Shown in pieces: positions 24,871 to 48,053 of a DNA stretch of 64,000 bases. The first letter of the stretch is position 1. Each line of letters opens with the position of its first letter. Location: positions 2,046,001-2,110,000 of the forward strand of contig NZ_CP165734.1 in assembly GCF_041200145.1 (NCBI RefSeq), written 5' to 3'. This DNA is from Bradyrhizobium sp. LLZ17. Its GTDB lineage: Bacteria; Pseudomonadota; Alphaproteobacteria; Rhizobiales; Xanthobacteraceae. The position numbers and the translations under genes were made by a program. The notes below the pieces were generated by a model that saw only the letters and a list, made by a program, of their open reading frames with translations, was not told the DNA's origin and did not search any database.

Positions 24871-26121
24871 ATGTTGAAAGGCAGTGCGGGATTGATTCTA
24901 TTGAGTGCCATGTTGTTGTCTGGCACGGCGATGGCCCAGGAGAAGATCAAAGTTGGCGTCACCGCGACGCTCGAAGGCACCTACACCGTGCTCGGTGAGG
25001 ATGGCATTCGCGGCTTTCAGACGGCGCTCAACGTACTCGGCAAGAAGGTCGGCGACAAGGAGCTCGAATTCGTCATCGCCTCGACCGATGCGACACCGGA
25101 CTCTGCCGTGCGCGCCGTGCGCAAGCTGATCGAGCAGGACAAGGTGCAGATCCTGCTGTCGCCGCTGTCTGGCGACGAAGGCATCGCGGTCAAGAATTTC
25201 GCAAAGACCCATCCGGAGCTGACTTTCATCAACGCCGCCTCCGGTGCCCAGGAAACGACCTATGTCGATCCGGCGCCGAATTTCTTCCGCTACAACATGG
25301 ACGGCGCGCAGTGGCAGGTGGGCCTCGGCAAATACGCCTATGACGAGAAGAAGTATAGGAAGATCGCGACCGTCGGCGAGGACTATTCCTTCATCTACAC
25401 CCAGGTGTTCGGCCTCGTGCTCGAATTCTGCGGCGCCGGCGGACAAGTCACCAACAGGCAATGGGTGCCGCTCGGCACCAAGGACTTCGCCTCGGTCATC
25501 GCCGCGCTGCCGGATGACGTCGACGCCATCTATCTCGGTCTCGGCGGTGCCGACGCCGTCAACTTCCTCAACCAGTACCAGCAGGCCGGCGGCAAGGCAC
25601 ATCTGATGGGCGGCTCGATCATGATCGACCAGACCATCCTGTCGTCCAAGGGCAACGCCAAGAACGCGCTGGTCGGCACGCTCGCCGCGAGCGGCCAGGC
25701 CGACACCTGGGAGGATCCGGGTTGGCAGAAGTTCGTCAAGGACTACCAGGACGCCTTCCCGGCCAACAAGCGCTTCCCCAGTCCGTCGCTGCTTGCCACC
25801 AACTATTACGGCTCGACCATGGCGCTGATCCTGGCGCTGCGCCAGGTCAACGGGGATCTCTCCAATAACCAGGCCAAGTACAAGGAAGCCCTCGCCAAGA
25901 TCGAGCTCGACGCACCCAACGGCAAGATCAAGCTCGACTCCAACCGCCAGGCGATCGGCACCAACTTCGTCACCGAAGTCGTCGACGACGGCAAGGGCGC
26001 GCTGTTCTCCAAGGTCGTGAAGGTGATCCCGAACGTCAATCAGACCCTGGGCTACGATCCCGCAGTGTTCGCCAAGATCGGTTTGCCTAGTCGTACAGTA
26101 CCGGAATGTAAGAAGTACTGA
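24871..26121 (+). CDS. Liv-type ABC transporter substrate-binding protein
   Basis: A 416-residue periplasmic binding protein of the branched-chain amino acid/amide type (Peripla_BP_6). The signal peptide MLKGSAGLILLSAMLLSGTA is cleaved near AMAQEK. The mature protein begins KIKVGVTATLEGTYTVLGEDG and has IASTDATPDSAVRAVRKLIE, GEDYSFIYTQVFGLV and YYGSTMALILALRQV. The start at 24871 follows GGGAGGAG by three to four bases and a signal peptide begins there. In catabolic clusters this class often binds aromatic acids or amides rather than amino acids. It is separated from its permeases by the AraC gene. Confidence 0.92.
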   Translation: MLKGSAGLILLSAMLLSGTAMAQEKIKVGVTATLEGTYTVLGEDGIRGFQTALNVLGKKVGDKELEFVIASTDATPDSAVRAVRKLIEQDKVQILLSPLSGDEGIAVKNFAKTHPELTFINAASGAQETTYVDPAPNFFRYNMDGAQWQVGLGKYAYDEKKYRKIATVGEDYSFIYTQVFGLVLEFCGAGGQVTNRQWVPLGTKDFASVIAALPDDVDAIYLGLGGADAVNFLNQYQQAGGKAHLMGGSIMIDQTILSSKGNAKNALVGTLAASGQADTWEDPGWQKFVKDYQDAFPANKRFPSPSLLATNYYGSTMALILALRQVNGDLSNNQAKYKEALAKIELDAPNGKIKLDSNRQAIGTNFVTEVVDDGKGALFSKVVKVIPNVNQTLGYDPAVFAKIGLPSRTVPECKKY

Positions 26122-26251
26122 CATAGTCTCGTTCGCGAGCGACGACGGAGCGGGGAGAGATTTGCAAGGCGCCGACATCATGCGCCCTTGCATTCTCTCC
26201 CCGGTTGTTGAACGCTACCAGGAAAAGACAAAAGCTTCTGGGAGAGAAGGC

Positions 26252-27079
26252 ATGAGCCGGGCGCTCGCCGTCTTCCACGGCCGCTTTGGCCGGGCGACGG
26301 TCTATCAGTTGAACCGTCCTTTCAACATCCACGCACATCGCGAAGGTCATTTGATCTTCCATGTCGGGGGGCGTCCCGCATGCATCGATGTCAGCGATGG
26401 ACGTTACGAGCTCACCGAAGGGTCCGTCGTCGCGGTCAATCCATGGGAGCCGCATAATTTCCTGCCGTCCGACCTCGACCTCGGCGCCGTTTTCTTCGTG
26501 CTTTATGTCAACGCGGAGTGGTTCGCGCCCGATGCGCCCGGCGCCGACCGCCTTCGCTTCGGCCGCACGCAATTCACGCGGTCGGTGGCACTGGACAAGC
26601 ATATCAAGCACGCAGCCGCCCTCGTGTGCGGCGCCCCTTCGCTCAATAGCCTGGATGGCGAGCTGAGAAGGCTGATCGACATCTGCTATGACGAGAGCTG
26701 GCAGCAGGCCGAAACCGCGCGCGATCCGCGCGCAAACGGTTCCGTCACCGATTTTCGCGTGCGCAAGTGTATCAAGATGATGTCGGAGAGCCCCGGTGCC
26801 GAGATCGAGCTCGACACCATCGCGCGTGAATCCGGCCTCTCGCGGCCGCATTTCTACCGGCTGTTCCGCACCCAGACCGGCGTCACCCCTCACCTCTATC
26901 TCAATACGCTGATGATGGAGCAGGCGCTGGAAGCGCTGGTGGCGAGCGAGGCGCCGATCGCCGATATCGGCTTCGATCTCGGCTTCTCATCGCAGAGCGG
27001 GTTCACCCGCTTTTTCGCAGCCAATGTCGGGATGGCACCAACCGATTATCGTCGCGCGGCCAAGGTTTTGCGCGCCTGA
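26252..27079 (+). CDS. AraC-family transcriptional regulator
   Basis: A regulator of about 275 residues with an N-terminal cupin-like sensor (FNIHAHREGHLIFHVGG near residues 24-40, VAVNPWEPHNF near 60) and a C-terminal double helix-turn-helix (IELDTIARESGLSRPHFYRL, then IADIGFDLGFSSQSGFTRFF). GGGAGAGAAGG immediately before the ATG at 26252 decides the start; earlier in-frame starts at 26162 (TTG) and 26180 exist. Placed between the binding protein and the permeases, it is the obvious candidate to switch on the whole operon in response to the imported compound. Confidence 0.88.
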   Translation: MSRALAVFHGRFGRATVYQLNRPFNIHAHREGHLIFHVGGRPACIDVSDGRYELTEGSVVAVNPWEPHNFLPSDLDLGAVFFVLYVNAEWFAPDAPGADRLRFGRTQFTRSVALDKHIKHAAALVCGAPSLNSLDGELRRLIDICYDESWQQAETARDPRANGSVTDFRVRKCIKMMSESPGAEIELDTIARESGLSRPHFYRLFRTQTGVTPHLYLNTLMMEQALEALVASEAPIADIGFDLGFSSQSGFTRFFAANVGMAPTDYRRAAKVLRA

Positions 27080-27139
27080 CATACGCGCGAAAAGATACTC
27101 ACGATCAAACGCTTCCCTTCCGGCCCATCTAGGATGTGC

Positions 27140-27151
27140 GGAACGCGTTCC
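27140..27151. promoter_or_regulatory. 12-bp perfect palindrome upstream of the permease genes
   Basis: GGAACGCGTTCC lies in the 201-base gap between the AraC gene and the first permease gene. It is perfectly symmetric but short, and GC-rich dyads of this size can occur by chance. It could be a regulator site. Confidence 0.25.
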
Positions 27152-27280
27152 CGCAAAGAGGATCGCGATTGATAGGGAGCGCACGTTCATGGCAGGGCTT
27201 GCGGCCGGCAACGGTCTGCGTGCCACCTCGCCCCGATCGGGGCAAGAGGGTTGGGCTGGCGCGAAGACGGATCGGCGATC

Positions 27281-28291
27281 ATGACCCGCTTTGTCGAGCG
27301 CCATCCAGCCTGGGCGCTGATCATCATCATCGCGGTCGCCGTCGCTCTTTGGCTGATCTTCGCGGTATGGCCGCAGGGCCTTGAAGAGGCAATCGGCCGC
27401 AAGCGGGTCTTCCTCAACGCGCTCTTCAACGGCATCACGCTTGGCGGTCTCTATTTCCTCGTCGCCAGCGGCTTTACGCTGATTTTCGGCCTGATGCGCA
27501 ACGTCAACCTCGCGCACGGCTCGCTCTATCTGTTCGGCGGTTATGTCGGCTACGCCATCAGCGCCTCGACCGGCTCCTGGATTCTTTCGTTCATCATCGC
27601 CTTCATCCTGACTGCGCTCGTCGGCGTCCTGCTCCAGGTTCTCGTCTTCCGCCGCATGGAGGGCCAGGATCTGCGACAGACCATGGTCACCATCGGGCTC
27701 TCGATCGTGTTCGCCGATCTGATGCTATGGGCCTGCGGTGGCGACTTCTACCAGATCCAGACCCCGAACTGGCTGATCGGTCCGATCGAGCTGCCGCTGA
27801 TCACCGCCGTGAAATCCTCGGGCGAGCCGGTGTATCTGCGCTATCCGCTGGTGCGGCTCGTGATCTTCCTGGCCTCCGTGATCATCGGCATCGCGATGTG
27901 GCTCGCGCTCAACCGCACCCGGATCGGCATGATCATCCGCGCCGGCGTCGACGATCGCGATATTCTCGCCGCGACGGGGGTGCGTATCCAGATCGTGTTC
28001 GTGCTCGTCTTCGCGCTCGGCGCCGGGCTCGCCGGCATCGCCGGCGTGGTCGGCGGGACGTTCCAGTCGCTCTCGCCCGGCGAAGACATCCGTTTCCTGC
28101 TCGCCTCGCTCGTGGTCGTGATCGTGGGCGGCATGGGCTCCATTCCCGGCGCCGCGCTCGGCGCGCTGATCATCGGCCTCGCCGAGCAGCTTGGCTCGGT
28201 TTACATCCCGACTTACGCCATCGTCGTGACCTTCCTGATCATGGTGCTGGTGCTAGCGCTTCGGCCGCGGGGCCTGCTCGCGAGGCGCTGA
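27281..28291 (+). CDS. Liv-type ABC transporter permease (LivH family)
   Basis: A 336-residue inner-membrane permease. Family stretches are GITLGGLYFLVASGFTLIFG near residues 50-70 and the late VGGMGSIPGAALGALIIGLAE near 285-305, with GVDDRDILAATGV in the ATPase-contacting loop. The ATG at 27281 begins the hydrophobic N-terminus. The LivM gene follows one base after the stop. It moves the ligand captured by the upstream binding protein. Confidence 0.92.
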   Translation: MTRFVERHPAWALIIIIAVAVALWLIFAVWPQGLEEAIGRKRVFLNALFNGITLGGLYFLVASGFTLIFGLMRNVNLAHGSLYLFGGYVGYAISASTGSWILSFIIAFILTALVGVLLQVLVFRRMEGQDLRQTMVTIGLSIVFADLMLWACGGDFYQIQTPNWLIGPIELPLITAVKSSGEPVYLRYPLVRLVIFLASVIIGIAMWLALNRTRIGMIIRAGVDDRDILAATGVRIQIVFVLVFALGAGLAGIAGVVGGTFQSLSPGEDIRFLLASLVVVIVGGMGSIPGAALGALIIGLAEQLGSVYIPTYAIVVTFLIMVLVLALRPRGLLARR

Positions 28292-28292
28292 C

Positions 28293-30161
28293 ATGTCCGT
28301 TGCCCACGACGCCCGCGTCCACGCCCACGTCCACAAGCCGGCCTCGACGGCTCAAGCTCCGGCCGCTCGCGGCTGGCCGGACATCAACGATCCCGCAGCC
28401 TGGATCGTGGCGATCATCCTGTTGGTCATGCCGCTGATCGCCAACGGCTTCTTCCTGATCGAGATTTTTGCGACGACGCTGATCCTCGGCACCATCGCGC
28501 TCAGCCTGATGTTTCTCGCCGGCTATGGCGGCATGGTCAGCCTGATGCAGCTCACCATCGCGGGCCTTGCAGCCTACATGGTCGCGGTGTTCGGGGTCAG
28601 CGGCAACCCCAATATCAGCCTGGGTTGGCCGTGGTGGCTTGCCGTCCCGATGGCGCTCGCGCTCGCGACCCTGTTCGGAACGCTCGGCGGCGCGCTCGCG
28701 GTGCGCACCGAGGGCATCTACACCATCATGATCACGCTCGCGATCGGCGCGGCCTTCTATTACTTCACCAACCAGAACTGGGCCATCTTCAACGGTCACA
28801 CCGGGATCAATACCGTCGCGACGCCACACTTCTGGGGCGTCAATTGGCGCGATGATATTCCCTTCTATTACATCGTGCTCGCCGTCGCCGCGCTCTGCTA
28901 TTTCGCGGTCGACTATATTTCCCGTGCCCCGTTCGGGCTGGCGCTCCAAGGTGTGCGCGATAATCCGCGCCGCATGGCCGCGCTCGGCTTCAACGTCAAT
29001 GCGCACCGCGTCGCGGCCTATGCGGTCGCCTCCTTCATCGCGGGGCTCGCCGGCGTGCTCCAGGTCTGGAACTACCGCCAGATCTCCCCCGGCTCGGTCA
29101 GTGTCGGCGCCTGCATCGACGTCCTGATCATAGCCGTCGTCGGCGGCATCACGCGCCCGATCGGCCCCTATATCGGCGCTCTCGTCTTCGTCCTCCTGCG
29201 CACTTTCGCGCTCGATTTCCTGGTCAAGATCGGTCTCGACGGTAATCGCTTTCGCTTGCTGATCGGGCTTGGCTTTCTCGCCATCGTGTTCTGGTCGTCG
29301 GACGGGTCATCGGGCTGTGGCAACGCTGGCGCCAAAGTCGGCGTCGACAAGCCGACCGCCCGGGCGGAGGGCCCGGCCATGGATAGCGTCGCGCAACGCC
29401 TCTCCGTGGTCGGTGCCGGCGCCGCGCTGGAACTCCGCGGCGTCACACGGCTGTTCGGCGCGCTCGCGGCGCTGACCGACATTACCATCACCGTGCGCCC
29501 GGGCGAGCGCCGCGCCGTGCTCGGTTCTAACGGCGCCGGCAAGACCACACTGTTCAACTGCATCACCGGCGACTTCCCGCCCTCCTCCGGCACGATCCGC
29601 TTCTTCGGCGAGGACGTCACGCATTTTCCGCCCTATGAGCGCATCCGGCGCGGGCTGCGACGGACCTATCAAATCTCTGCGCTGTTTCCCGGCCTCACTG
29701 TGCAGGACAATGTCTATCTCGCCTGCTGTGGCGTCTCGCGCGGACGATTCTCTTTCCTCCGTCCCGGGCAGAACGATGCCCTGATGCACGCCGCCGACAA
29801 TCTGGTGCAGGCTGTGCATCTGGCAGCGGTGAAGGACCAGCGCGTCGCGGAGCTCGCCCACGGCCAGCAGCGCCAGCTCGAGATCGCGCTGGCCCTTGCC
29901 GGCGCGCCGCGCTTCGTGCTGTTCGACGAGCCGGCCGCCGGACTCTCGCCGACCGAACGGGCGGAGCTGGTCGAGATCCTGACCTCGCTCCCCGCGCATA
30001 TCGGCTACATCATCATCGAGCACGACATGGACGTGGCGTTGCGTGTCGTCGAGAGCGTGACGATGATGCACAACGGCCGCATCTTCAAGGAGGGTGTGCC
30101 GGAGGAGATCCAATCCGATCCCGAGGTGCAGGAGCTTTATCTCGGAGGCGGCCATGAATGA
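28293..30161 (+). CDS. Liv-type permease (LivM) and ATPase (LivG), read as one frame, probably two genes joined by a frameshift
   Basis: As read, one frame encodes 622 residues. Residues 40-340 form a LivM permease (LMFLAGYGGMVSLMQLTIAG near 70, GVRDNPRRMAALGFN near 220). Residues 363-622 form a LivG ATPase (Walker A GSNGAGKTTLFNC, signature LAHGQQRQLEIALAL, Walker B VLFDEPAAGLSP). At 29303-29306 the run GGG seems one G short: adding it restores the normal LivM ending (VIGLWQRWRQ) and a TAG at 29384-29386, overlapping a LivG start at 29379 (MDSVAQRLSVV) by 8 bases. The linker as read has no family character, so a one-base loss is more likely than a real fusion. Confidence 0.85.
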   Translation: MSVAHDARVHAHVHKPASTAQAPAARGWPDINDPAAWIVAIILLVMPLIANGFFLIEIFATTLILGTIALSLMFLAGYGGMVSLMQLTIAGLAAYMVAVFGVSGNPNISLGWPWWLAVPMALALATLFGTLGGALAVRTEGIYTIMITLAIGAAFYYFTNQNWAIFNGHTGINTVATPHFWGVNWRDDIPFYYIVLAVAALCYFAVDYISRAPFGLALQGVRDNPRRMAALGFNVNAHRVAAYAVASFIAGLAGVLQVWNYRQISPGSVSVGACIDVLIIAVVGGITRPIGPYIGALVFVLLRTFALDFLVKIGLDGNRFRLLIGLGFLAIVFWSSDGSSGCGNAGAKVGVDKPTARAEGPAMDSVAQRLSVVGAGAALELRGVTRLFGALAALTDITITVRPGERRAVLGSNGAGKTTLFNCITGDFPPSSGTIRFFGEDVTHFPPYERIRRGLRRTYQISALFPGLTVQDNVYLACCGVSRGRFSFLRPGQNDALMHAADNLVQAVHLAAVKDQRVAELAHGQQRQLEIALALAGAPRFVLFDEPAAGLSPTERAELVEILTSLPAHIGYIIIEHDMDVALRVVESVTMMHNGRIFKEGVPEEIQSDPEVQELYLGGGHE

Positions 30162-32370: not shown

Positions 32371-32373
32371 CCG

Positions 32374-33207
32374 ATGGCCCGGTTTGAACGCGCGGTACTC
32401 CTGAGGCGATTTCGCGAGATGGCGAAGCGCGGCGAACCGATCGTCGGCGGCGGCGCCGGCACCGGGCTGTCGGCCAAATGCGAAGAGGCCGGCGGCGTCG
32501 ATCTCATCGTCGTCTACAATTCCGGCCGCTATCGCATGGCGGGCCGCGGCTCGCTCGCCGGACTGATGGCCTATGGCGACGCCAACGCCATCGTACTGGA
32601 GATGGCTGGCGAGGTGCTGCCAGTGGTCAGCAAGACGCCGGTGCTCGCGGGCGTCAACGGCACCGACCCGTTCCGGGACATGGACGTGTTCCTCGACCAA
32701 CTGAAGGCGCTCGGTTTTGCCGGCGTGCAGAATTTTCCGACCGTCGGCCTGATCGACGGCATTTTCCGCGCCAATCTCGAAGAGACCGGCATGTCTTATG
32801 CGCTGGAGATCGACATGATCGCCAAGGCGCGCGAGAAAGACTTGCTGACGACACCGTACGTGTTCAGCGAGAAGGAAGCCGCCGCGATGGCGATCGCCGG
32901 CGCCGACATCATCGTCTGCCATCTCGGGCTCACCACCGGCGGCTCGATCGGCGCGCAGACCGCACTGAAGTTGCAGGACTGCCCGGCGCGGGTCGACACC
33001 TGGGCGTCAGCCGCGCTGAGCGTCAATCCGGACATTCTGGTGCTTGCTCACGGCGGCCCGATTGCTGAACCCGCGGATGCCGATTTCATCATGAAGAACA
33101 CCCGTCACTGCCACGGTTTCTACGGCGCCTCCTCGATGGAGCGGCTGCCGGTGGAACGTGCGCTGACGGATCAGGTCCGAAAATTCAAGGCGATCGGCGC
33201 GCGATAA
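32374..33207 (+). CDS. Phosphoenolpyruvate hydrolase-family TIM-barrel protein
   Basis: A 277-residue TIM-barrel protein of the family labelled PEP hydrolase-like (PF09370). Conserved stretches are [20 protein letters not shown] near residue 28, [17 protein letters not shown] near 48, [19 protein letters not shown] near 118, [12 protein letters not shown] near 185 and [13 protein letters not shown] near 248. The family forms the C-terminal half of the plant Tm-1 protein and usually neighbours UPF0261 genes in bacteria. Its substrate is not established to my knowledge. It starts three bases after the LivF/UPF0261 stop with a GGAGG-type site upstream. Confidence 0.88.
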
Positions 33208-33233
33208 CGCCGGAACGATTGAAGGAGGGAAAC

Positions 33234-36137: not shown

Positions 36138-36146
36138 GGTCGCACC

Positions 36147-36584
36147 ATGCCACGCGTCTACGTCTCCACCGTCGTCAATGCGCGCAACGACCGCGTCTGG
36201 GCCCGGGTGCGCGACTTCAACGGCCTACCAAACTGGCACCCCGCGATTGCGGAGAGCCGCATCGAGGGCGGCGAGCCCTCCGACAAGATCGGCTGCGTCA
36301 GGGATTTTCGCCTGCGCAATGGCGACCGCATCCGCGAGAAGCTCCTGGGCCTGTCCGATTACGACATGTTCTGCACCTACTCGATTCTCGACTCTCCGAT
36401 GGGCGTCGACAATTACGTTGCGACCTTGCGGCTCACGCCGGTCACCGACGGCGACCAGACCTTTATGGAATGGACCGCCGAATTCGACTGCGCGCCGGAG
36501 CGGGAAACCGAGCTGGTCGGCAACATTGGCGGCGGCGTGTTCCAGGGAGGCTTCGACGCCCTCAAGCGTGTGTTCGGAGGCTGA
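36147..36584 (+). CDS. SRPBCC-family protein (polyketide cyclase/START-like), first copy
   Basis: A 145-residue single-domain protein of the SRPBCC fold, which forms a hydrophobic ligand cavity. The N-terminus has NARNDRVWARVRDFNGLPNW and the middle EGGEPSDKIGCVRDFRLRNG, both shared with the next gene. It starts 9 bases after the flotillin stop. CoxG proteins in carbon monoxide dehydrogenase clusters are also SRPBCC proteins, so a role in handling the molybdenum enzyme or its substrate is possible. No catalytic residue can be assigned. Confidence 0.82.
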   Translation: MPRVYVSTVVNARNDRVWARVRDFNGLPNWHPAIAESRIEGGEPSDKIGCVRDFRLRNGDRIREKLLGLSDYDMFCTYSILDSPMGVDNYVATLRLTPVTDGDQTFMEWTAEFDCAPERETELVGNIGGGVFQGGFDALKRVFGG

Positions 36585-37031
36585 GTGGTGCCGCACATCG
36601 TCAAGAGCACCATCCTGGATGCGCCGAGTGACGCGACGTGGTCGGTGTTGCGCGATTTCAACGGGCACGACCGCTGGCACCCGGCGGTCGCGACGTCCTC
36701 CATCGAACGCGCGCAGCCTTCCGACAAGATCGGCTGTGTCAGGCGCTTCAAGCTCAAGGACGGCTCGGAGCTGCGCGAGCAGCTGCTGGCCTTGTCCGAT
36801 CTCGAACAGACCTTCAGCTACTGCCTGCTCGACACCCCGATCCCGATGTTCAACTACGTCGCCCATGTTCGCCTGCTGCCGGTGACCGACGGCGACCGCA
36901 CCTTCTGGCACTGGGAATCGCGCTTCACGACCAAGCCGGAAGACACGGACCGCATCACCCACATGGTTGCGGAAGACATCTACCAGGCGGGATTCGAGGC
37001 GATCCGCCGCCATCTGAAGGAGGCCGCCTAG
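36585..37031 (+). CDS. SRPBCC-family protein, second copy
   Basis: A 148-residue paralogue of the preceding protein: VLRDFNGHDRWHPAV, AQPSDKIGCVRRFKLKDG, LLPVTDGDRTFWHWESRF. Two GTG codons stand directly after the upstream TGA (36585 and 36588); GGAGG upstream is better placed for the second, which would shorten the protein by one residue. The tandem pair suggests either a heterodimer or two ligands. It ends one base before the FAD-subunit gene. Confidence 0.82.
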   Translation: MVPHIVKSTILDAPSDATWSVLRDFNGHDRWHPAVATSSIERAQPSDKIGCVRRFKLKDGSELREQLLALSDLEQTFSYCLLDTPIPMFNYVAHVRLLPVTDGDRTFWHWESRFTTKPEDTDRITHMVAEDIYQAGFEAIRRHLKEAA

Positions 37032-37032
37032 C

Positions 37033-37851
37033 ATGGCCGTGATCGTGAAAACATTCGCCAACGCCAGCGAGGCGGCCGCCGCGCTGTCCTCGGAGCGCAG
37101 CGCGCGCTATCTCGGCGGCGGCACGCTGGTGATGCGGGCGCTGAACGAGGGCGACGTCTCGGTCTCGACCGTCGTCCGCGCCAGTGACCAGGCGCTCACC
37201 CGGATCGATGCATCGGGCCCTCGTGTCACGTTGGGCGCCGGTGTCACCTTCGGACGGATCCTCGCTGAGCGCGATCTCGCCTTCCTGCACGCCCCTGCCC
37301 GCTCGATCGGCGGTCCCGCCGTCCGCAACATGGGCACGGTCGGCGGCAACCTGTTCGCGCCCATCCCTTACGGCGATTTCACTGTGGCGCTGCTGGCGCT
37401 CGACGCGACCGTCGCCGTGCAAGGCGGCTTCGGGTCGCGCGACATTCCTATCGAGGAATTTCTTCAGGCGCGCGACCGCCAGTCCGGCACTCTGGTCCTG
37501 TCGGTGTCGTGTACGCGACCGGCGAGCACCGAGGCGTTCCGCTATCGCAAGATCGCCCGGATCAAGCCGAAGGGCGGCTCCGTGATCACGATCGCCGCGC
37601 ACCTGCCGATCTCGGGCGGTCGCATCGCCGGGGCGCGCATCGCGCTGGGCTCGATGGCGCCGACGCAGATCCGCGCTCGCGCCGCCGAGCGCGCGCTGGA
37701 AGGCCGTTCGCTGGATGGCGCGACGATCGCGGCCGCGGCTTCGGCCGTCGGCGAAGGAACATCCCCGGCGGACAACGCGCTCGGAAGCGCCTGGTATCGC
37801 CGCGAGATCGTCGGCGTGCACCTGCGTCGCCTGTTGTCCGGCCAGGAGTGA
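37033..37851 (+). CDS. Molybdenum hydroxylase FAD-binding medium subunit (CoxM-like)
   Basis: A 272-residue FAD subunit of the xanthine dehydrogenase/CO dehydrogenase family. It passes electrons from the iron-sulfur subunit to the acceptor. The flavin motifs are RYLGGGTLVMRAL near residue 30 and the family block RNMGTVGGNLFAPIPYGDF near 98-116; FRYRKIARIKPKGGSVI near 175 belongs to the C-terminal domain. It is shorter than many CoxM proteins but appears complete. Confidence 0.9.
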   Translation: MAVIVKTFANASEAAAALSSERSARYLGGGTLVMRALNEGDVSVSTVVRASDQALTRIDASGPRVTLGAGVTFGRILAERDLAFLHAPARSIGGPAVRNMGTVGGNLFAPIPYGDFTVALLALDATVAVQGGFGSRDIPIEEFLQARDRQSGTLVLSVSCTRPASTEAFRYRKIARIKPKGGSVITIAAHLPISGGRIAGARIALGSMAPTQIRARAAERALEGRSLDGATIAAAASAVGEGTSPADNALGSAWYRREIVGVHLRRLLSGQE

Positions 37852-37856
37852 CCGCG

Positions 37857-38333
37857 ATGTCCAAAATCCCCCTGCAATTTCGTCACAACGGCCGCGACGT
37901 CGCGATCTTTGTCGAAGGCGGCACCAATCTCCTCGTTGCACTCCGCGAACTGATCGGCGACATGACGCCCAAGTTCGGCTGCGGCCAGGGCGGCTGCGGC
38001 GCCTGCAGCGTGTTGATCGACGGCGAGCTCCACTTGTCCTGTCTGACGCTGGCGGAGACGGTCGCGGGCCGTTCCATAGAAACCCTCGACGGTATGAAGC
38101 AGGGTCCCAACCTGCATCCGCTTCAGCGCGCTTTCGCCGACCACTTCGCGGCCCAATGCGGCTATTGCACCCCGGGCATGCTGATGGCCGCGAAGGCCTT
38201 GCTCGACCGCACCCCCGCTCCGAGCCGCGCCGAGATCGTCGAGGCGATCTCCGGCAACATCTGCCGCTGCACGGGCTATGAGCCGATCATCAATGCGATC
38301 CTCGCCGCCGCGGGCGGCCGGGCCAGCGCCTGA
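37857..38333 (+). CDS. Molybdenum hydroxylase [2Fe-2S] small subunit (CoxS-like)
   Basis: A 158-residue subunit with two [2Fe-2S] clusters. The plant-ferredoxin-type cluster uses the Cys residues in FGCGQGGCGACSVLIDGE plus LSC (about residues 43-63). The second uses QCGYCTPGM and NICRCTGYE (about 101-142). All eight Cys are present. The ATG at 37857 lies five bases after the FAD-subunit stop. It connects the molybdenum site to the flavin. Confidence 0.93.
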   Translation: MSKIPLQFRHNGRDVAIFVEGGTNLLVALRELIGDMTPKFGCGQGGCGACSVLIDGELHLSCLTLAETVAGRSIETLDGMKQGPNLHPLQRAFADHFAAQCGYCTPGMLMAAKALLDRTPAPSRAEIVEAISGNICRCTGYEPIINAILAAAGGRASA

Positions 38334-38344
38334 AGGACCCGACC

Positions 38345-39937
38345 ATGCTGGAACTGCGCAAGGACATTTTTGCCGACGAGCGCGACGATAACCTCAAGGA
38401 GATCGGCAAGGGCACGCAGCGTCAGGACATGCTCGGCCACGTGACGGGCACGTCGAGCTATTTCAATGACCATCAGCTTCAGGGCATGCTGCACCTGAAG
38501 GTGGTGCGCTCGACCCAGGCGCACGCCAGAATTCGCCGCATCGACACCACCGAGGCCGAGCGATCGGCTGGCGTGCGCCGGATCATCCGCGGCGCCGACG
38601 TGCCGCGCAACCTCAACACGCTTTTGAGCCTGATCAATTTCGGCAAGGACGACGAGCCGTCGCTTGCGGTCGACAAGGTCCGCTACAAGGGCGAGCCGAT
38701 CGTCGCCATCGTTGCCGACAGCGAGCGCGAAGCATTCGAGGCGATTGCAAAGGTCAAGGTCGACTATGAATTGCTGCCGGCCGTGTTCGACGTCGAGGAG
38801 GCGCTGAAGCCAGGCGCGCCCGTGGTCAACGAGACCTATCCCAAGAACACCTTCATTTATCACGAGACCTATGACCACCAGAAGCTCCGCTTCGGCGACG
38901 CCGATGCAGCGCTGGCGACCGCCGATCATGTGCTGGAGCAGCGCTACCAGATGTCGCCGATCGAGCACGCGCCGACCGAAACCAACGGGGCGATTGCCGC
39001 GCCCGACACCAACGGCCGCTATCTGGTCTACACCTCGACACAAGCGCTGTTCTTTTCGGTCGACACCTGCGCCAAGATCCTGGACGTCCCGTCCAACACC
39101 TTCCACTTCATCGGCGGGACCGTCGGTGGCGGATTTGGCGGCAAGGTCGATACGCTGACCGAGCCGCTCGCGATCCTCGGCGCGATGCTGACCGGGCGAC
39201 CCGTGCGCTACGTGTTCGGCCGCGAGGAGGAGATGCAATACGGTCCGCCGCGCGGCGCCGAGCGCATCTACATCAAGGACGGGGTGATGCGCGACGGCCG
39301 CATCGTCGCGCGCAAGATCACTGCCTATTTCGACAGCGGCGCCTACACGCGGCTGTCCAGCTACGCCGCCGTGAAATGCGCCGCGCACCTGCCGGGCCCC
39401 TACACCATCCCGAACGTCTATGGCGACGTCTATTGCGTCTTCACCAACCGCACGCCGGCCACCGCCATGCGCGGCTTCGGCGTCACCGCGATGGACTTTG
39501 CGATCGAGTGCCAGATGGACAAGCTGGCCAACCTCGTCGGCATGGACCCGATGGAATTTCGCATCCTCAATGCCTATCGCGATGGCGACATGAAGGCGCA
39601 CCGGCGCGAGGCCAAGAACACGGCCTTGATCGAATGCGTCCAGGTCGCGGCCGAAAAGGCCAAATGGCCGATCCGCGACGAATTCAGGCGGGCATCATCG
39701 CGCAAGGACGGCGGCGGCAGCCGCGCAACGATTCCACCGACCGCGACCGCTTCGCGCGCGGCGCCGACGGCGCCTGTGCAGCAGCGCACGAGCTACGACC
39801 GGCTCCCGCCCACCGTCACCCGCGAACCGCCGCGCGAGCCGCCACCCCCGGCATCCCCGCCACCCTCACCGCGGCCGGCCGCGCCCTCGCATGGCGCGAC
39901 TCGTTTTTCCTCCGTCTTTGGCACCAGGAGGCGCTAG
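38345..39937 (+). CDS. Molybdenum hydroxylase large subunit, N-terminal half (hammerhead and first Mo-cofactor domain)
   Basis: A 530-residue protein covering the a/b hammerhead domain (DMLGHVTGTSSYFNDH, about 20-150) and the first molybdopterin-binding domain (GGTVGGGFGGKVDTLTEPLA near 258, ATAMRGFGVTAMDFAIE near 377). It then passes into a Pro-rich tail of about 80 residues (445-530, e.g. PPREPPPPASPPPS) and stops at TAG 39935-39937. The second half of the subunit follows at once in the same frame. The active-site loop lacks the Cys of true CO dehydrogenase (AYRCSFR), so a xanthine- or N-heterocycle-type hydroxylase is more likely. Confidence 0.87.
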   Translation: MLELRKDIFADERDDNLKEIGKGTQRQDMLGHVTGTSSYFNDHQLQGMLHLKVVRSTQAHARIRRIDTTEAERSAGVRRIIRGADVPRNLNTLLSLINFGKDDEPSLAVDKVRYKGEPIVAIVADSEREAFEAIAKVKVDYELLPAVFDVEEALKPGAPVVNETYPKNTFIYHETYDHQKLRFGDADAALATADHVLEQRYQMSPIEHAPTETNGAIAAPDTNGRYLVYTSTQALFFSVDTCAKILDVPSNTFHFIGGTVGGGFGGKVDTLTEPLAILGAMLTGRPVRYVFGREEEMQYGPPRGAERIYIKDGVMRDGRIVARKITAYFDSGAYTRLSSYAAVKCAAHLPGPYTIPNVYGDVYCVFTNRTPATAMRGFGVTAMDFAIECQMDKLANLVGMDPMEFRILNAYRDGDMKAHRREAKNTALIECVQVAAEKAKWPIRDEFRRASSRKDGGGSRATIPPTATASRAAPTAPVQQRTSYDRLPPTVTREPPREPPPPASPPPSPRPAAPSHGATRFSSVFGTRRR

Positions 39938-40960
39938 ATGACCCGGCATCGTGGACGCGGCATGGCGTCGATCAACTATCCCATCGGCATGAACCTCGGC
40001 GGCGATCCGAGCCAGGCGCTGGTGCATTCAAATCCGAGCGGCAAGTTCACCGTGGCGCTGTCGTCGATCGACCTCGGCCAGGGCATGAAGTCGGTGACGC
40101 GGCAGATCTGCGCGGAGACGCTGGGCGTCCCCGTCGAGGACGTCTATGTCGACACGGCGGACTCCGACACCGGGCCGCATTGCATGGGCTCGTTCGCCTC
40201 GCGCGGCACCCATCGCGTCGGCAATGCCGTAATGGCGGCAGCACGCGAGGCGCGTGGCGTGATGATGGAGGCGGCGGCCGAAGAGTTGGAAGTGAACGCC
40301 GCCGATCTCGAGACTGACGGGCGTGGCAACATCCACGTCAAGGGCGCTCCGCACCGTTCGATCTCGACCAAGGACGTCGCTATCGCGGCGCAATTCAAGC
40401 AGGGCAAGACCATCTCGGGACGCGGCATTTTCCTGGTGCCTCTGTCCGACGTCGATCCCGAGACCGGCGAGATGTCGCCGGCGACCTGCTACGCCCATGC
40501 CTGCCTCGTCGCCGAGGTCGAGGTGGACGACGAGACCGGTGAAGTCGCGATGGTGCGAATGGACTCCGCCTATGAGCTTGGTCGCGCGCTGAATCCGCGG
40601 CTGGTCGAGCAGCAGCTCGTCGGCGGCGCCTGGATGGGCATCAGCCACACGCTGTATGAGACAACCGAGCCCTATTATCCCGAGCCCGTTCACGGCCCGC
40701 GCGACTTCGTCGAATATCTGATGCCCGGCCCCGGCGACATTTGCCCGCACGACATCGCCGTGCTCGAACGCCCTGCTCCCGACGGACCGTTCGGCGCCAA
40801 GGGGCCCGGCGAGATGTGCGCCAATCCCGTACTGCCGGCCGTTGCCAACGCAATCTTCAACGCCGTCGGCGTGCGCATCGACGATCTCCCGATCACCCCG
40901 GAAAAAGTCCTGCGCGCGATCAAATCCCAAGGCGGCGCGCGGCCGCAGGCGCGGCGCTGA
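39938..40960 (+). CDS. Molybdenum hydroxylase large subunit, C-terminal half (second Mo-cofactor domain)
   Basis: A 340-residue protein equal to the second molybdopterin-binding domain of the family: INYPIGMNLGGDPSQALVHS near residue 11, SIDLGQGMKSVTRQI near 43, and the catalytic Glu in AKGPGEMCANPV near 288. It begins directly after the stop of the first half, in the same frame. AGGAGG stands six bases before its ATG, so it has its own initiation site. The two halves together would form the large subunit; whether they work as two chains or one read-through chain is open. Confidence 0.87.
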   Translation: MTRHRGRGMASINYPIGMNLGGDPSQALVHSNPSGKFTVALSSIDLGQGMKSVTRQICAETLGVPVEDVYVDTADSDTGPHCMGSFASRGTHRVGNAVMAAAREARGVMMEAAAEELEVNAADLETDGRGNIHVKGAPHRSISTKDVAIAAQFKQGKTISGRGIFLVPLSDVDPETGEMSPATCYAHACLVAEVEVDDETGEVAMVRMDSAYELGRALNPRLVEQQLVGGAWMGISHTLYETTEPYYPEPVHGPRDFVEYLMPGPGDICPHDIAVLERPAPDGPFGAKGPGEMCANPVLPAVANAIFNAVGVRIDDLPITPEKVLRAIKSQGGARPQARR

Positions 40961-40970
40961 GGTTTGATCC

Positions 40971-41852: not shown

Positions 41853-42970
41853 GAAACGAGAACCAGCTGCCGCGGGCGGCCCGCATCTTCGTCTCGTTCG
41901 TTTCGCTGCTCCGCACGAACGGCTTCGCCGTAGCACCGGAACAGACCACCATTTTTCTCGCGGCCATCGAACTGCTCGGCCCACGCGGCCTCGGCGATGT
42001 CAGGCAGGCGGCGCTCGCCACCCTCGCCCCGCCTCCCGAGCGACGCGCCACCTTCGACCGCCTGTTCGATCTGCACTTCCGCGGCAGCGAAGCCATCGAG
42101 CATGCCGACGACGGCGAGGACGACGAGACCGTCCGCCTCCAGGAGGAAGGCCGCGGCGAGGAAGAACCGCTGTTCTCAGGTGAGGCCAACGAATCCGGCC
42201 TCAGCGCGACCCGCACCGAGGCACTGGTCGAGCGCCGCTTCGCCCAGCTTTCAACGGCCGATGCGCTGCGGCGCTTGGCGCGCGAGGCCCCGAGGCGTCT
42301 GCCGCGGCGGCGCGGGCACCGGCGCATGCGCGCCCGCCGCGGGCCGTTTGCGGACCTGCGCCGCACCTTGCGCGATTCCGTCCGCAGCGACGGCGAGATC
42401 TTGCGGCTCGGTCACCTGAAACGCAGACAGCGCCCGCGGAAGATATTGCTCCTGATCGACGTCTCCGGCTCAATGAAGAGCCGCACCGAAGACAACATGA
42501 AGCTTGCGCATACGTTGGTGCAGGTCGCGCCGAATGTCGAGGTCTTTACCTTCGGCACGCGGCTCACGCGCGTGACCCGCGCGCTGCGGCTGAAGCGGCG
42601 CGAGCAGGCGCTGAACGCGGCCGCGCATCTGGTCAGCGACTGGGACGGCGGCACCCGCATCGGCGATGCGCTGCAGGCCTTTCTCGCTGTGCCTCGATTT
42701 GGTGGCTACGCGCGCGGCGCCGCCGTGATCATCGTGTCCGACGGCCTCGAGCGCGGCGAGCCTGACGCACTGCGCGACGCGGCGGCAAAACTGTCGCGGC
42801 GGGCCTGGCGGGTGAGCTGGTTGACGCCACTTGCGGCCGGTCCCGGCTTTCGCCCGCAAACCGAGGCGCTGGTCGCGATCGAGCGCTACGTCGACGACCT
42901 CGTCGATGGTGGATCGAGCGCGGCGATCGTGGCCCATGTGCTGGCATTGGGTCGAAGGAGAGTTGCGTGA
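41849..42970 (+). CDS. VWA-domain protein (CoxE-like)
   Basis: A 373-residue protein with a C-terminal von Willebrand factor A domain. The MIDAS metal motif is DVSGSMKS near residue 203, followed by the Thr in DGGTRIGDAL. The N-terminal half is Arg- and Glu-rich (PRRLPRRRGHRRMRARRG). It is the partner of the upstream MoxR ATPase; in CO dehydrogenase systems CoxD and CoxE are needed for a functional active site. Start overlaps the upstream stop as ATGA. Confidence 0.9.
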   Translation: MRNENQLPRAARIFVSFVSLLRTNGFAVAPEQTTIFLAAIELLGPRGLGDVRQAALATLAPPPERRATFDRLFDLHFRGSEAIEHADDGEDDETVRLQEEGRGEEEPLFSGEANESGLSATRTEALVERRFAQLSTADALRRLAREAPRRLPRRRGHRRMRARRGPFADLRRTLRDSVRSDGEILRLGHLKRRQRPRKILLLIDVSGSMKSRTEDNMKLAHTLVQVAPNVEVFTFGTRLTRVTRALRLKRREQALNAAAHLVSDWDGGTRIGDALQAFLAVPRFGGYARGAAVIIVSDGLERGEPDALRDAAAKLSRRAWRVSWLTPLAAGPGFRPQTEALVAIERYVDDLVDGGSSAAIVAHVLALGRRRVA

Positions 42971-43851
42971 CCGAGATCGTCGACGGGCATCATCACATCT
43001 GGCGACAGGCCGACCTGCCCTGGCTGACCGGCCCGATGCAGCCGCGCATCTTCGGACCGTACGAACCGATCCGGCGCGACTATCCGATTCAGGAATATCT
43101 GGCCGATCTCAAGGATACCGGCGTCTCCCGCTCGGTCTACGTGCAGACCAACTGGGCCAACGACCGCTTTGAGGATGAGGCTGCCTGGGTGCAGGAGACC
43201 GCCGAGGTTCATGGCTGGCCCCACGCTATCGTCGCCTATGCCAATTTCGCCGTTGACGACGTGCGCCCGCAGCTCGACCGGCTCAAGCGCTATCCGCTGG
43301 TGCGCGGCGTGCGAATGCAGCTGCACTGGCACGAGAACCCGCTCTACCGCTTCGCTGCAAAACCCGATCTCTGCGCAGACCCCATGATCCGACGCAATGT
43401 CGCGCGTCTCGCCGATTACGGCTGGAGCTTCGACTTGCAGGTGTTCACGCCGCAGATGCCGGACGCGGCAGAGCTTGCCGATGCCTGTCCCAAGGTGACC
43501 TTCATCCTCCAGCATGCCGGCATGCTGGAGGACGTGTCGCCGGCGGGACGCGCCGCATGGCGCGCCGGGATGACCCGGCTCGCGGCATGTCCGAACGTGG
43601 TCTCGAAGCTTTCCGGGCTCGGCACCTTCATTCATCGCAACGATCCCGACCACGTCGCGGCGGTGCTCACCGACGCCGTGGCGATCTTCGGCGCCGAGCG
43701 CTGCCTGTTCGGCTCCAATTTCCCCATCGAGAAATTGTGGACCAGCTATCGCGAGCTCGTCGATGCTTTTCGTGCGGCGGCTGCCCCGCTGACTACCAAG
43801 CAACAGGACGCGATCTTCAGGACTACGGCAGCGCGCGTCTATCGGCTTTGA
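42967..43851 (+). CDS. Amidohydrolase-family (TIM-barrel) metal-dependent hydrolase
   Basis: A 294-residue protein of the amidohydrolase 2 family. The metal motif VDGHHHIW is at the N-terminus, GVRMQLHWHENPLY lies near residue 114, LQHAG near 180 supplies another His, and the Asp position near 250 reads FGSNFPIEK, where many relatives have an Asp (GSDWP or GSNFP types both occur). Relatives hydrolyse lactones such as fuconolactone or pyrone dicarboxylate. The GTG start overlaps the upstream stop by four bases, placing it in the operon. Confidence 0.86.
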   Translation: MTEIVDGHHHIWRQADLPWLTGPMQPRIFGPYEPIRRDYPIQEYLADLKDTGVSRSVYVQTNWANDRFEDEAAWVQETAEVHGWPHAIVAYANFAVDDVRPQLDRLKRYPLVRGVRMQLHWHENPLYRFAAKPDLCADPMIRRNVARLADYGWSFDLQVFTPQMPDAAELADACPKVTFILQHAGMLEDVSPAGRAAWRAGMTRLAACPNVVSKLSGLGTFIHRNDPDHVAAVLTDAVAIFGAERCLFGSNFPIEKLWTSYRELVDAFRAAAAPLTTKQQDAIFRTTAARVYRL

Positions 43852-43882
43852 GAGACAAGAAACAAGATACGGAGGGCAACGA

Positions 43883-44731: not shown

Positions 44732-44804
44732 GGGCTTTTTGTCTGCGTGATCTTGATGGAAACCGCTCCAGAGCTTTCCGGATCATGCTTCTGAGGATCG
44801 ACCG

Positions 44805-46379
44805 ATGACCCACGTCACCCTGCGCTCCGAATTCGAAGCTTTGATTGATCCCTATGCGCCGGTGGCGCAGGTCGGCACCGGCTTCGACTTCACGGAAGGA
44901 CCGATCTGGCACCCGATCGATCAATATCTGCTGTTCTCGGACATGCCTGGCGACGTGCGACGGCGCTGGGACGCCCGGCGCGGCGTGGTCGAGGTCAAGC
45001 GGCCGTCGAACAAATGCAACGGCATGACCTATGACGCCGAACTCAATCTGATCGTCTGCGAGCACGCGACCTCGTCGCTGATCCGCGAGCGGCCGGACGG
45101 CCGGCGCGAGGTGCTGGCCTCGCACTTCCAGGGTCAGGAGCTCAACAGCCCGAACGACGTCTGCGTGCACTCCTCCGGCGCGATCTATTTCTCGGACCCG
45201 TGGTACGGCCGCATGCCGGTCTATGGCGTCGAGCGGCCGCGGCAGCTCGGCTTCCAGGGTGTCTATCGGGTCGTAGCTGGCGGCGAGCCAACGCTCGTGG
45301 TCGATCGCAACCTGTTCGACCAGCCGAACGGGCTCTGCTTCTCGCCCGACGAGCGACTGCTTTATGTCAACGACACCGTGCAGGCGCTGATCCGCGTGTT
45401 CGACGTCAACAACGATGGCTCGCTGTCGAACGCGCGCGTGTTCGCCAGCGGCATCCGTTCCGAGCTGGAGCCCGGCCTGCCCGACGGCATGAAGTGCGAC
45501 CAGCACGGCAATGTCTGGGTCACCGCGCCCGGCGGCGTCTGGGTCTATTCGCCGCGCGGCGAGCTGCTAGGCAAGGTTCGCGTGCCCGAGCTGGTCGCCA
45601 ACCTCGCCTGGGGCGGACCTGATTTTCGCACGCTGTACCTGACCTCGACGCATTCGGTCTATGCCATCCCGACCAAGGCTGGACCGCGCCACGAGCCCTA
45701 TATGAGGGCCAGGCGTGGCGGTGGCGGCGCAGGCGCCGGGCCAGCAGCCGCGGCGCCCATCCTCGCCGATGGCGAGATGCAGCTCGATCCGCGGCGTTGC
45801 GCTATGATCATTCAGGATTTGCAGAACGACGTGATCATGGACGGCGGTGCGTTCGCCGACTCGGGCGCGCCGGGACACGCGAAACAACAGCATGTCGTCG
45901 AGAATGTGCGCCGGCTCGCGGAAGCTGCGCGCGCCCGCGGCGTCACCATCATCCACGTCTGGTTCGTGGTCGAGCCCGGCGCCCCCGGCGTGACGTTGAA
46001 CGCGCCGCTGTTCGAGGGCCTCGTCGACAGCAAGGCGATGGTCCGCGGCAGCTGGGGCGCGGCACCCGCCTCGGGTCTCGAACCGCGGCCCGGCGATTTC
46101 GTCGTCGAGAAGATGCGGATGAGCGCTTGGGAGGGCACTCGGCTCGAGACGATCCTCAAGGCGACCGGGCGCGACATGATCATCAACACCGGCGCCTGGA
46201 CCAACATGTCGGTCGAGCACACCGCGCGTACCGGTGCCGACAAGGGCTATTTCATGATCGTGCCGGAGGACTGCTGCTCGACCATGAATGCCGATTGGCA
46301 GTCCGCCTCGATCAACTTTGCCATGCAGAACGTCGCCGTCGTGACGCGCGCGGACGCGGTCATCAGAGCGCTTGGATGA
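44805..46379 (+). CDS. Fusion of SMP-30/gluconolactonase and isochorismatase-like domains
   Basis: A 524-residue fusion. Residues 1-300 form an SMP-30 lactonase with metal ligands Glu in FTEGPIWHP (near 28), Asn in LNSPNDVCV (near 113) and Asp in LLYVNDTV (near 190). A Gly/Ala linker (RRGGGGAGAG) follows near 305, then an isochorismatase-like domain (325-524) with Asp in IIQDLQNDVI and Lys in VEKMRMSAWEG. At the usual nucleophile position the sequence reads TNMSVEHTART, where cysteine hydrolases have TNVCVE, so Cys is replaced by Ser. The frame is continuous and both halves are complete, so the fusion looks real. It may open a lactone and then cleave an amide. Confidence 0.88.
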   Translation: MTHVTLRSEFEALIDPYAPVAQVGTGFDFTEGPIWHPIDQYLLFSDMPGDVRRRWDARRGVVEVKRPSNKCNGMTYDAELNLIVCEHATSSLIRERPDGRREVLASHFQGQELNSPNDVCVHSSGAIYFSDPWYGRMPVYGVERPRQLGFQGVYRVVAGGEPTLVVDRNLFDQPNGLCFSPDERLLYVNDTVQALIRVFDVNNDGSLSNARVFASGIRSELEPGLPDGMKCDQHGNVWVTAPGGVWVYSPRGELLGKVRVPELVANLAWGGPDFRTLYLTSTHSVYAIPTKAGPRHEPYMRARRGGGGAGAGPAAAAPILADGEMQLDPRRCAMIIQDLQNDVIMDGGAFADSGAPGHAKQQHVVENVRRLAEAARARGVTIIHVWFVVEPGAPGVTLNAPLFEGLVDSKAMVRGSWGAAPASGLEPRPGDFVVEKMRMSAWEGTRLETILKATGRDMIINTGAWTNMSVEHTARTGADKGYFMIVPEDCCSTMNADWQSASINFAMQNVAVVTRADAVIRALG

Positions 46380-47009
46380 ATGGTGGCAAAGCTGCTGCAC
46401 CTGTCCTGCTCGCCCCGCGCCGACTCCGAGTCGAGCGCCGGCGCGCGGGTGTTTCTCGAGGGGTTTCGCCAGGCGCGGCCGGACTGGGATATCGACGCAG
46501 TGGACCTTTGGCGAGAGCGGATGCCGGAGTTCGCAGGCCCGATCGTCGAGGCCAAATATGCGCGCATGACTGCAACGCCCTTCAACGACGCGCAGCGCGA
46601 CAGCTTTGCCGAGGCCGAACGGATGGCGCTACGCTTTTCGCTCGCCGATCGGGTGCTCATTTCCGCGCCGATGTGGAATTTCGGCATCCCCTACAAGCTG
46701 AAGCAGTGGTTCGACATCGTCATCCAGCCCGGCCTGACGTTCCGGTTCGACCCGGCGCAGGGGTACCTTCCGCTGCTGAAGGACCGGCCGACCGTCGTCA
46801 TCCTCGCGTCCGGCAGCGATTTCGGCACCGGCATGAATCGCGGCCGCATCGACATGGCCACGCCCTATTTGCGCGAGGCGCTCCGCTTCATCGGCGTCAG
46901 CGACGTGCGCTTCGTGCCGGTCGGGCCGACCACCGGCCCGACGGATCCGATCGTCGCCGCTCGCGAAACGGCATACCGACGGCTTCGGGACATCGCTGCA
47001 CGGTTTTGA
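46380..47009 (+). CDS. FMN-dependent NADH-azoreductase-like flavodoxin-fold protein
   Basis: A 209-residue flavoprotein of the AzoR/NAD(P)H quinone reductase family. The N-terminus KLLHLSCSPRADSESSAG binds FMN phosphate, and SAPMWNFGIPYKLKQWFDIV near residue 97 is the family signature around the flavin. The ATG follows the previous TGA directly. It ends the long plus-strand operon; the next gene converges with 12 bases between stops. It may reduce a quinone-like product or recycle an electron acceptor. Confidence 0.88.
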   Translation: MVAKLLHLSCSPRADSESSAGARVFLEGFRQARPDWDIDAVDLWRERMPEFAGPIVEAKYARMTATPFNDAQRDSFAEAERMALRFSLADRVLISAPMWNFGIPYKLKQWFDIVIQPGLTFRFDPAQGYLPLLKDRPTVVILASGSDFGTGMNRGRIDMATPYLREALRFIGVSDVRFVPVGPTTGPTDPIVAARETAYRRLRDIAARF

Positions 47010-48032: not shown

Positions 48033-48053
48033 GTGCGCTTCTCCGCTTTCCGA

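Follow-up and report, generated by a model that had tools for sequence, protein, structure and literature searches.

A conserved Bradyrhizobium gene cassette with a predicted kinase domain fused to the LivF-type ATPase of its importer

INTRODUCTION

The Hpe and Acv pathways of acetovanillone catabolism begin by phosphorylating a ring hydroxyl (PMC9618137, PMC12167813). The kinase of these pathways, HpeHI, is a two-component enzyme resembling phosphoenolpyruvate (PEP) synthase, and a biotin carboxylase and a phosphatase follow it. MarK of Novosphingobium aromaticivorans, which acts on aromatic monomers, is presented in another report as the single-component kinase of an Hpe-like pathway (PMC13101465). 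For plants, a study of Tm-1 holds that the full-length protein must serve a function besides virus resistance and names none (PMC5028733). Here we describe a gene cassette in Bradyrhizobium sp. LLZ17 that joins a Liv-type ATP-binding cassette (ABC) importer, a UPF0261 domain fused to the LivF-type ATPase of that importer, a PF09370 protein, a long flotillin, and a split molybdenum (Mo) hydroxylase. It lies at positions 24871 to 47009 of the stretch of DNA analyzed (the window: 64,000 nucleotides, positions 2,046,001 to 2,110,000 of NZ_CP165734.1). We propose, with moderate confidence, that it is a conserved system for breaking down a single imported ring compound that bears a hydroxyl group and is probably phenolic or enolic. 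With its proposed opening phosphorylation it may resemble the first step of the Hpe and Acv pathways, but it is not a member of that group, as no PEP-synthase-like kinase, three-component biotin carboxylase, or phosphatase was found among the Pfam matches of its 19 genes. Literature searches on the families and gene combinations of the cassette found no described pathway that matches it, in agreement with the first-pass annotation, which could name none, and the gene set, carried by many alphaproteobacteria, appears as a whole to be undescribed.

RESULTS AND DISCUSSION

A conserved cassette with a LivF-UPF0261 fusion

By open reading frame listing and Pfam matches, the cassette comprises 19 plus-strand genes in a host genome of 7.8 Mb, assembled as a single contig, and the closest relatives at this locus among the matches listed are Bradyrhizobium. 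Overlaps or gaps of fewer than 35 bases make up 15 of the 18 junctions, the remaining gaps measuring 40, 171, and 73 bases (worked out from coordinates, taking 37848 as the start of the 2Fe-2S gene and 30154 as that of the UPF0261 gene). This bears out the first-pass annotation, which had described a tightly spaced, one-strand run of about 18 genes. Its gene list was also correct in all but one point: the Tm-1-like domain is no gene of its own but forms the C-terminal half of a protein that begins with the LivF-type ATPase. The features, all on the plus strand, are as follows.

24871 to 26121, plus: Liv-type periplasmic substrate-binding protein (SBP); PF13458, 1.2e-48
26162 to 27079, plus: AraC-family regulator; PF12833, 9.2e-23
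27090 to 27135, plus: putative AraC operator and promoter, from aligned gaps (AAAAGATACTnnCGATCAA at 27090 to 27108, TAGGAT at 27130 to 27135)
27251 to 28291, plus: LivH-type permease; PF02653, 6.9e-36
28293 to 30161, plus: LivM permease-LivG ATPase fusion; PF02653, PF00005
30154 to 32370, plus: LivF-type ABC ATPase-UPF0261 (Tm-1/MarK-like) fusion, predicted import-linked kinase
32374 to 33207, plus: PF09370 TIM-barrel protein, UPF0261 partner
33219 to 36137, plus: flotillin, 972 amino acids from the first start codon, with SPFH, 44-residue repeats, and Flot; PF01145, PF15975
36147 to 36584, plus: SRPBCC protein 1; PF10604, 1.6e-28
36585 to 37031, plus: SRPBCC protein 2; PF10604, 4.2e-16
37033 to 37851, plus: Mo hydroxylase flavin adenine dinucleotide (FAD) subunit; PF00941, PF03450
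37848 to 38333, plus: Mo hydroxylase 2Fe-2S subunit; PF01799, PF00111 in frame 37509 to 38333, with 37848 the next start codon
38345 to 39937, plus: Mo subunit, first half (MoCoBD_1); PF02738, PF01315
39710 to 39934, plus: Pro/Ala-rich C-terminal tail of the first Mo half, with RFSSVFGTRRR (39902 to 39934) at its end; terminal motif
39938 to 40960, plus: Mo subunit, second half (MoCoBD_2); PF20256
40971 to 41852, plus: AAA ATPase, MadB/CoxD-like; PF00004
41849 to 42970, plus: CoxE-type VWA protein; PF05762, 7.5e-47
42967 to 43851, plus: amidohydrolase 2 (fuconolactonase-like); PF04909
43883 to 44731, plus: metallo-beta-lactamase (MBL) fold hydrolase (lactonase-like); PF00753
44805 to 46379, plus: SMP-30/gluconolactonase-isochorismatase-type amidase fusion; PF08450, PF00857
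46380 to 47009, plus: flavodoxin-like NAD(P)H reductase, accessory; PF02525

We asked whether these genes occur together in other genomes. Flotillin proved too general as a search marker (5,943 homologues among 7,999 candidates scored), and UPF0261 was used instead. An even draw of 385 genomes from the class contained UPF0261_C in 49, from which 57 UPF0261 stretches were read (L003 to L059, excluding the window's own locus and counting a two-copy stretch once). The LivF fusion was present in 18 of these stretches, flotillin in 17, and a same-strand PF09370 gene in 35; flotillin adjoined 17 of the 18 LivF-fused UPF0261 genes versus none of the 39 unfused ones. In a draw of 398 genomes from the phylum, which has some genomes in common with the class sample, 14 of 54 UPF0261 matches had an open frame of at least 740 amino acids, a mere proxy for the fusion. 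We further compared 80 named loci, the best among the matches listed in a search with a UPF0261 alignment of 16 members. The fusion was found in 76 of them, flotillin in 72, and PF09370 in 69, the first of these counts being biased because every member of the query alignment was itself LivF fused; the counts from the class and phylum draws are less biased in this respect. Gene presence was scored by phmmer with window proteins as queries (L020 proteins for type B, defined below), so diverged members may have been missed.

The Mo hydroxylase module was present in 47 of the 80 relatives (type A), a different enzyme module in 19 (type B), and neither in 14, several of which are short contigs; no locus carried both. 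In 43 of the 47 type-A loci, 14 genes from livH to the AAA ATPase retain the same order (LivH-LivM-LivG-LivF/UPF0261-PF09370-flotillin-SRPBCC-SRPBCC-FAD-FeS-Mo-Mo-AAA), which excludes a chance neighborhood, and the genes absent from the other four fall towards one end of the available stretch. The first-pass annotation had named a lack of joint conservation as the outcome that would speak against a single system, and genome comparison gave the opposite. SBP precedes livH in all 44 type-A relatives where it was seen, and an AraC gene was seen in 43 of 47 type-A relatives versus none of the 19 type-B loci. The LivM-LivG fusion of the window occurs in none of the 80 relatives. In 18 type-A or incomplete relatives, a gene of an iron-alcohol-dehydrogenase-like family, one member of which was named by a family search, lies close to SBP. 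One locus on record as Frankia sp. RB7 (L065, JAUEPE010000001.1) carries a Bradyrhizobium-type cassette with a 91% identical UPF0261 domain and is probably a mislabeled or contaminated assembly.

Downstream, a copy of the amidohydrolase (58 to 88% identical) was found in 19 of the 20 type-A genomes searched, and the run AAA-VWA-amidohydrolase-MBL-SMP30-isochorismatase was present in 19 of 19 downstream stretches, with space for one more gene in both L144 and L151. The flavodoxin-like gene occurs in 3 of 20 downstream stretches, namely two of those 19, L140 (a record named Frankia) and L141 (Bradyrhizobium), and one same-genus stretch, L159. Of the genes that come next in the window (FabK/NMO, thiolase, and PimD-type), none was found in any of the 20. 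This survey places the end of the shared system at 46379 and that of the Bradyrhizobium form at 47009. Outside these limits, a LacI-type regulator, a sugar ABC importer, a Gfo/Idh-type dehydrogenase, and a xylose-dehydrogenase-like short-chain dehydrogenase/reductase (17505 to 24465) and genes for FabK/NMO, a thiolase, and pimeloyl-CoA dehydrogenase subunits (47022 to 51639) look like ordinary neighbors.

The fused UPF0261 domain and its PF09370 partner

Both halves of the UPF0261 domain score far above their Pfam cut-offs of 27 bits (PF06792, 204.4 bits; PF23189, 304.9 bits), and, among the NCBIfam matches listed, only UPF0261 models exceed their cut-off for any cassette gene. The database form of the fusion is 738 amino acids long, with a start at 30154. 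It is easily overlooked, since it goes under ABC transporter permease in many public records. Both halves are named in JGI records, and one UniRef entry reads UPF0261 protein bll3382, a name in the locus-tag style of B. diazoefficiens USDA 110. The structural model of the UPF0261 domain matches the fold of a UPF0261 protein crystallized with acetovanillone (PDB 9mpy, 30% identity), which is probably the kinase MarK, Saro_1862, and the window domain is 46% identical to plant Tm-1 over 384 aligned residues. Residues invariant among 16 cassette UPF0261 domains are spread over the entire domain, and many are common to Tm-1 and 9mpy. From these likenesses we infer that the LivF-fused domain is an import-linked small-molecule kinase. 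For the PF09370 protein we considered the PEP mutase/methylisocitrate lyase superfamily; fold searches gave scores of 17.1 for 5unc, 16.9 for 2dua, and 16.2 for 1xg4, overlapping with those of unrelated TIM barrels at 16 to 17, which puts its chemistry beyond the reach of such a search. The Tm-1-like pair, previously judged to have no obvious place, now has a likely one: a kinase linked to import, with a TIM-barrel enzyme acting next.

More distant UPF0261 genes adjoin genes of PPDK_N/PEP-utilizer, P450, glutamine-synthetase-like, HpaB-type, or aldehyde dehydrogenase families, as would suit kinases that serve in catabolism. In L005, a gene of the 2-phosphosulfolactate phosphatase family (6892 to 7581, minus strand) directly follows a UPF0261-PF09370 pair, which also hints at a phosphorylated intermediate. 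In L039, a regulator of the sigma-54 type that contains a PF09370 domain (17137 to 19311, minus strand) lies near a further such pair. The host genome itself has a second, distant UPF0261 gene at about 3.424 Mb (L003, 9202 to 10728), which is not fused to LivF and has no PF09370 match in the 20 kb read.

A flotillin core shared by two enzyme modules

The N-terminal hydrophobic segment of the translation, the SPFH domain (PF01145), and the Flot domain (PF15975) identify the product of the gene at 33219 to 36137 as a flotillin, and a score of 22.9 against 700 bits for the NCBIfam FloT equivalog shows that it is not FloT. Its length is due to a repeat with a period of 44 residues, which was the best period in the window protein and in all six further type-A flotillins examined (weak in two, L029 and L079); in the one type-B flotillin tested, a period of 88 ranked first and 44 second. 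Stop-to-stop frames range from 869 to 1,360 amino acids in the 47 type-A loci versus 566 to 966 in the 19 type-B loci, with overlapping ranges. Two apparent fusions, P0013 (SPFH with PF09370) and P0004 (flotillin with PF10604), were rejected as Rosetta-stone evidence because by eye their sequences look frameshifted in or beside the partner domains.

Type-B loci keep the transporter, Tm-1-like, flotillin, and SRPBCC core, followed by other enzymes. In L020 these are a quinone-reductase-like alcohol dehydrogenase fused to the counterpart of SRPBCC protein 2, an HpaG-like fumarylacetoacetate (FAA) hydrolase, a PcaD-like alpha/beta hydrolase, and an amidohydrolase near Xaa-Pro dipeptidase, ochratoxinase, and carboxypeptidases. 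The SBP gene lies between LivM and LivG in all 18 type-B loci where it was seen. PF09370 was not seen in 8 of the 19 type-B loci, in some of which it may lie elsewhere, and all three regulators tested upstream of type-B cores combine a PF09370 domain with a Fis-type helix-turn-helix. In a quick UPF0261 tree of 112 rows (omitting domains below 380 bits or 350 amino acids and one duplicate), in which 38 of 108 inner branches were well supported, one change separates types A and B, while the LivF fusion requires four; treating unlabeled loci as groups of their own requires 17. LivF and UPF0261 are separate genes in L013 and L015, plausibly the state preceding fusion.

Since the flotillin core also occurs with different enzymes, the system has two alternative modules, of which the Mo hydroxylase is one, and does not have that enzyme as its heart. 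The part of the first-pass interpretation which stands is a coinherited, probably AraC-regulated system for uptake and catabolism, and the flotillin, once without a place in any known pathway, now belongs to a core that is also found with another enzyme set.

The split Mo hydroxylase and its terminal peptide

Membership of the xanthine dehydrogenase (XDH) family is indicated by PF00941, PF03450, PF00111, PF01799, PF01315, PF02738, and PF20256. The top PDB match of the first Mo half is 3hrd_A, the 425-amino-acid large Mo subunit of nicotinate dehydrogenase (residues 18 to 439 of 530), and that of the second half is 3hrd_B. The halves are on separate frames in all 45 named relatives in which both were seen. 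We considered aerobic CO dehydrogenase, in which the active-site Cys loop of CoxL carries the motif AYRCSFR, and rejected it: the first Mo half reads ATAMRGFGVT by eye at that place, AYRCSFR is absent, and CO dehydrogenase models score it at 167 to 172 bits against cut-offs of 950 to 991. CoxD/CoxE-like factors are known to mature Mo hydroxylases, and the AAA ATPase of the cassette scores 272 bits against NF047784 (cut-off, 475).

The tail of the first Mo half lies beyond its PDB matches, the last of which end at residues 439 to 444 of 530. Proline and alanine make up a mean of 51% of the tail (range, 12 to 66%; 51 proteins), and the motif RFSSxxGxRRR or a looser variant ends 49 of 50 split cassette Mo proteins, the exception being L125 with PFTSGFRKR. 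The loose motif ends only 1 of 1,480 other gene matches of the loci, a PF09370 protein (fused proteins counted once per domain). Two basic residues also end the second Mo half in 23 of 51 cases, which means that basic termini do not by themselves mark out the first half. Docking peptides are expected to combine a long, flexible linker with a conserved end, and we regard the terminal peptide as a candidate for one. Flotillins form cages, and the flotillin, generally longer in type A, would be the obvious candidate partner.

The araC-livH element

The 171-base gap after araC contains a conserved element. Both AAAAGATACT and TAGGAT occur in all 18 aligned araC-livH gaps (the window's and those of 17 relatives, each named Bradyrhizobium except L065), and the complete AAAAGATACTnnCGATCAA occurs in 16 of them; TAGGAT begins 21 bases after AAAAGATACTnnCGATCAA in the window. 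The exact pattern was found in 19 of 167 loci, the window's own included, and once in the 7.8-Mb genome, where 12 other sites each had three mismatches, against two hits for a reversed control pattern. A related pattern, AAGACTnTCGGGTA, was found with at most two mismatches in 15 of 25 more distant type-A gaps versus 0.06 in single-base shuffles, the pattern having been derived from the same 25 gaps. Scanning 24400 to 28400 for sigma-70 promoter and terminator consensus sequences gave nothing beyond chance and no sigma-70 promoter at the element. Its conservation suggests that livH onward may form a transcript separate from SBP-araC; the main transcript probably begins near 27140, and the cassette is probably AraC regulated. 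The conserved element, together with the bll3382 member name, makes it straightforward to look for the substrate by reporter screening in a laboratory strain.

Proposed function and alternative explanations

In the route that we propose, a Liv-type ABC importer under AraC control would take up the compound, and the LivF-fused UPF0261 domain, as a kinase of the MarK/Tm-1 family, would phosphorylate and so trap it during or just after entry. The PF09370 TIM barrel would then work on the phosphorylated compound, and the two SRPBCC proteins may carry a poorly soluble intermediate at a membrane patch organized by the flotillin. There the ring would be hydroxylated, with water, by the split XDH-type Mo hydroxylase, which the CoxD/CoxE-like pair would mature and its own C-terminal peptide would anchor, and the ring would be opened by an amidase together with three lactonase-like hydrolases. 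In the alternative version, the later steps would fall to the quinone-reductase-like enzyme, FAA hydrolase, PcaD-like hydrolase, and amidohydrolase. No oxygenase or CoA ligase domain was found among the Pfam matches of the window cassette. A bolder form of this proposal, which we put forward tentatively and think rather unlikely, is that the system is an ABC-type counterpart of group translocation, in which one polypeptide would combine uptake and phosphorylation and pass its product to flotillin-caged enzymes, with the Mo hydroxylase docked by its peptide and a chassis that accepts two exchangeable modules.

Catabolism of an N-heterocycle would give the Mo enzyme the role of hydroxylating beside the ring nitrogen, like nicotinate dehydrogenase, after which the isochorismatase-type amidase would free ammonia and the kinase would act on the hydroxylated ring. 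The PDB neighbors of both Mo halves are the two Mo subunits of 3hrd, although other Mo hydroxylases follow closely (for the second half, 1rm6 at 154 versus 163 bits). The amidase domain is near RutB, YecD, N-carbamoylsarcosine amidohydrolase, and biuret hydrolase, and the type-B terminal amidohydrolase is near carboxypeptidases, prolidases, and ochratoxinase; yet type B, with the same importer and kinase, lacks the Mo enzyme, and we consider an N-heterocyclic substrate unlikely. The hydrolases might instead point to a sugar-acid lactone or ascorbate-like compound, which the Mo enzyme would oxidize, with SMP-30, amidohydrolase 2, and the MBL-fold enzyme opening lactones, the kinase phosphorylating a sugar hydroxyl, and 2-oxoglutarate semialdehyde as the end product. 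The sole NCBIfam match of amidohydrolase 2 is L-fucono-1,5-lactonase (NF052480), and the SMP-30 domain is closest to gluconolactonases. In 12 relatives, SBP or araC has an aldehyde dehydrogenase gene nearby (on the opposite strand in one), and the only member tested, that of L090, scores best as alpha-ketoglutaric semialdehyde dehydrogenase (475 bits; cut-off, 770). However, the lactonase matches fall below NCBIfam cut-offs (112 against 400 bits for amidohydrolase 2, and far below for the top matches of the MBL-fold hydrolase, acyl-homoserine lactone (AHL) lactonase and 4-pyridoxolactonase). The sole UPF0261 structure with a substrate-like ligand contains a phenol, and the quinone-reductase-, HpaG-, and PcaD-like enzymes of type B (one locus), found with the same importer and kinase, suit aromatic or enol-lactone chemistry better. 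We therefore doubt that the substrate is of this kind.

A noncatalytic role for UPF0261 and PF09370 would have them sense both a ligand and the state of ATP and so gate the transporter, while the flotillin would organize the membrane and the enzymes would act conventionally. The covalent attachment of UPF0261 to an ABC ATPase and the occurrence of PF09370 as a sensor-like domain in regulators are consistent with such a role. Against it stand the invariant residues along the entire UPF0261 domain, many shared with Tm-1 and 9mpy, and the 39 of 57 class-draw stretches with UPF0261 but no LivF fusion, and we judge it improbable.

Comparison with known systems

Like nicotinate dehydrogenase (3hrd) and other XDH-family enzymes, the Mo hydroxylase has its FAD, 2Fe-2S, and Mo parts on different chains, two of which make up the Mo subunit; unlike 3hrd_A, the first Mo half adds a Pro/Ala-rich tail with a conserved terminal peptide. 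The importer has the composition of Liv/HAAT systems, with a Peripla_BP_6 protein, two BPD_transp_2 permeases, and two ATPases, a likeness that does not tell the substrate class, but its LivF-type ATPase bears a predicted kinase domain. If the prediction holds, no other ABC importer is known to us to have a kinase built into its motor subunit. The cassette also provides a defined setting in which to ask what flotillins organize in bacteria. In contrast to MarK, the UPF0261 domain described here is joined to an ABC ATPase and has PF09370 as its partner. It shares with plant Tm-1 the same two domain families, UPF0261 and PF09370, but in Tm-1 they form one chain, whereas here UPF0261 is joined to LivF, and the next gene encodes the TIM barrel. 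The orphan pair from which plant Tm-1 arose thereby gains a concrete, testable role in bacteria.

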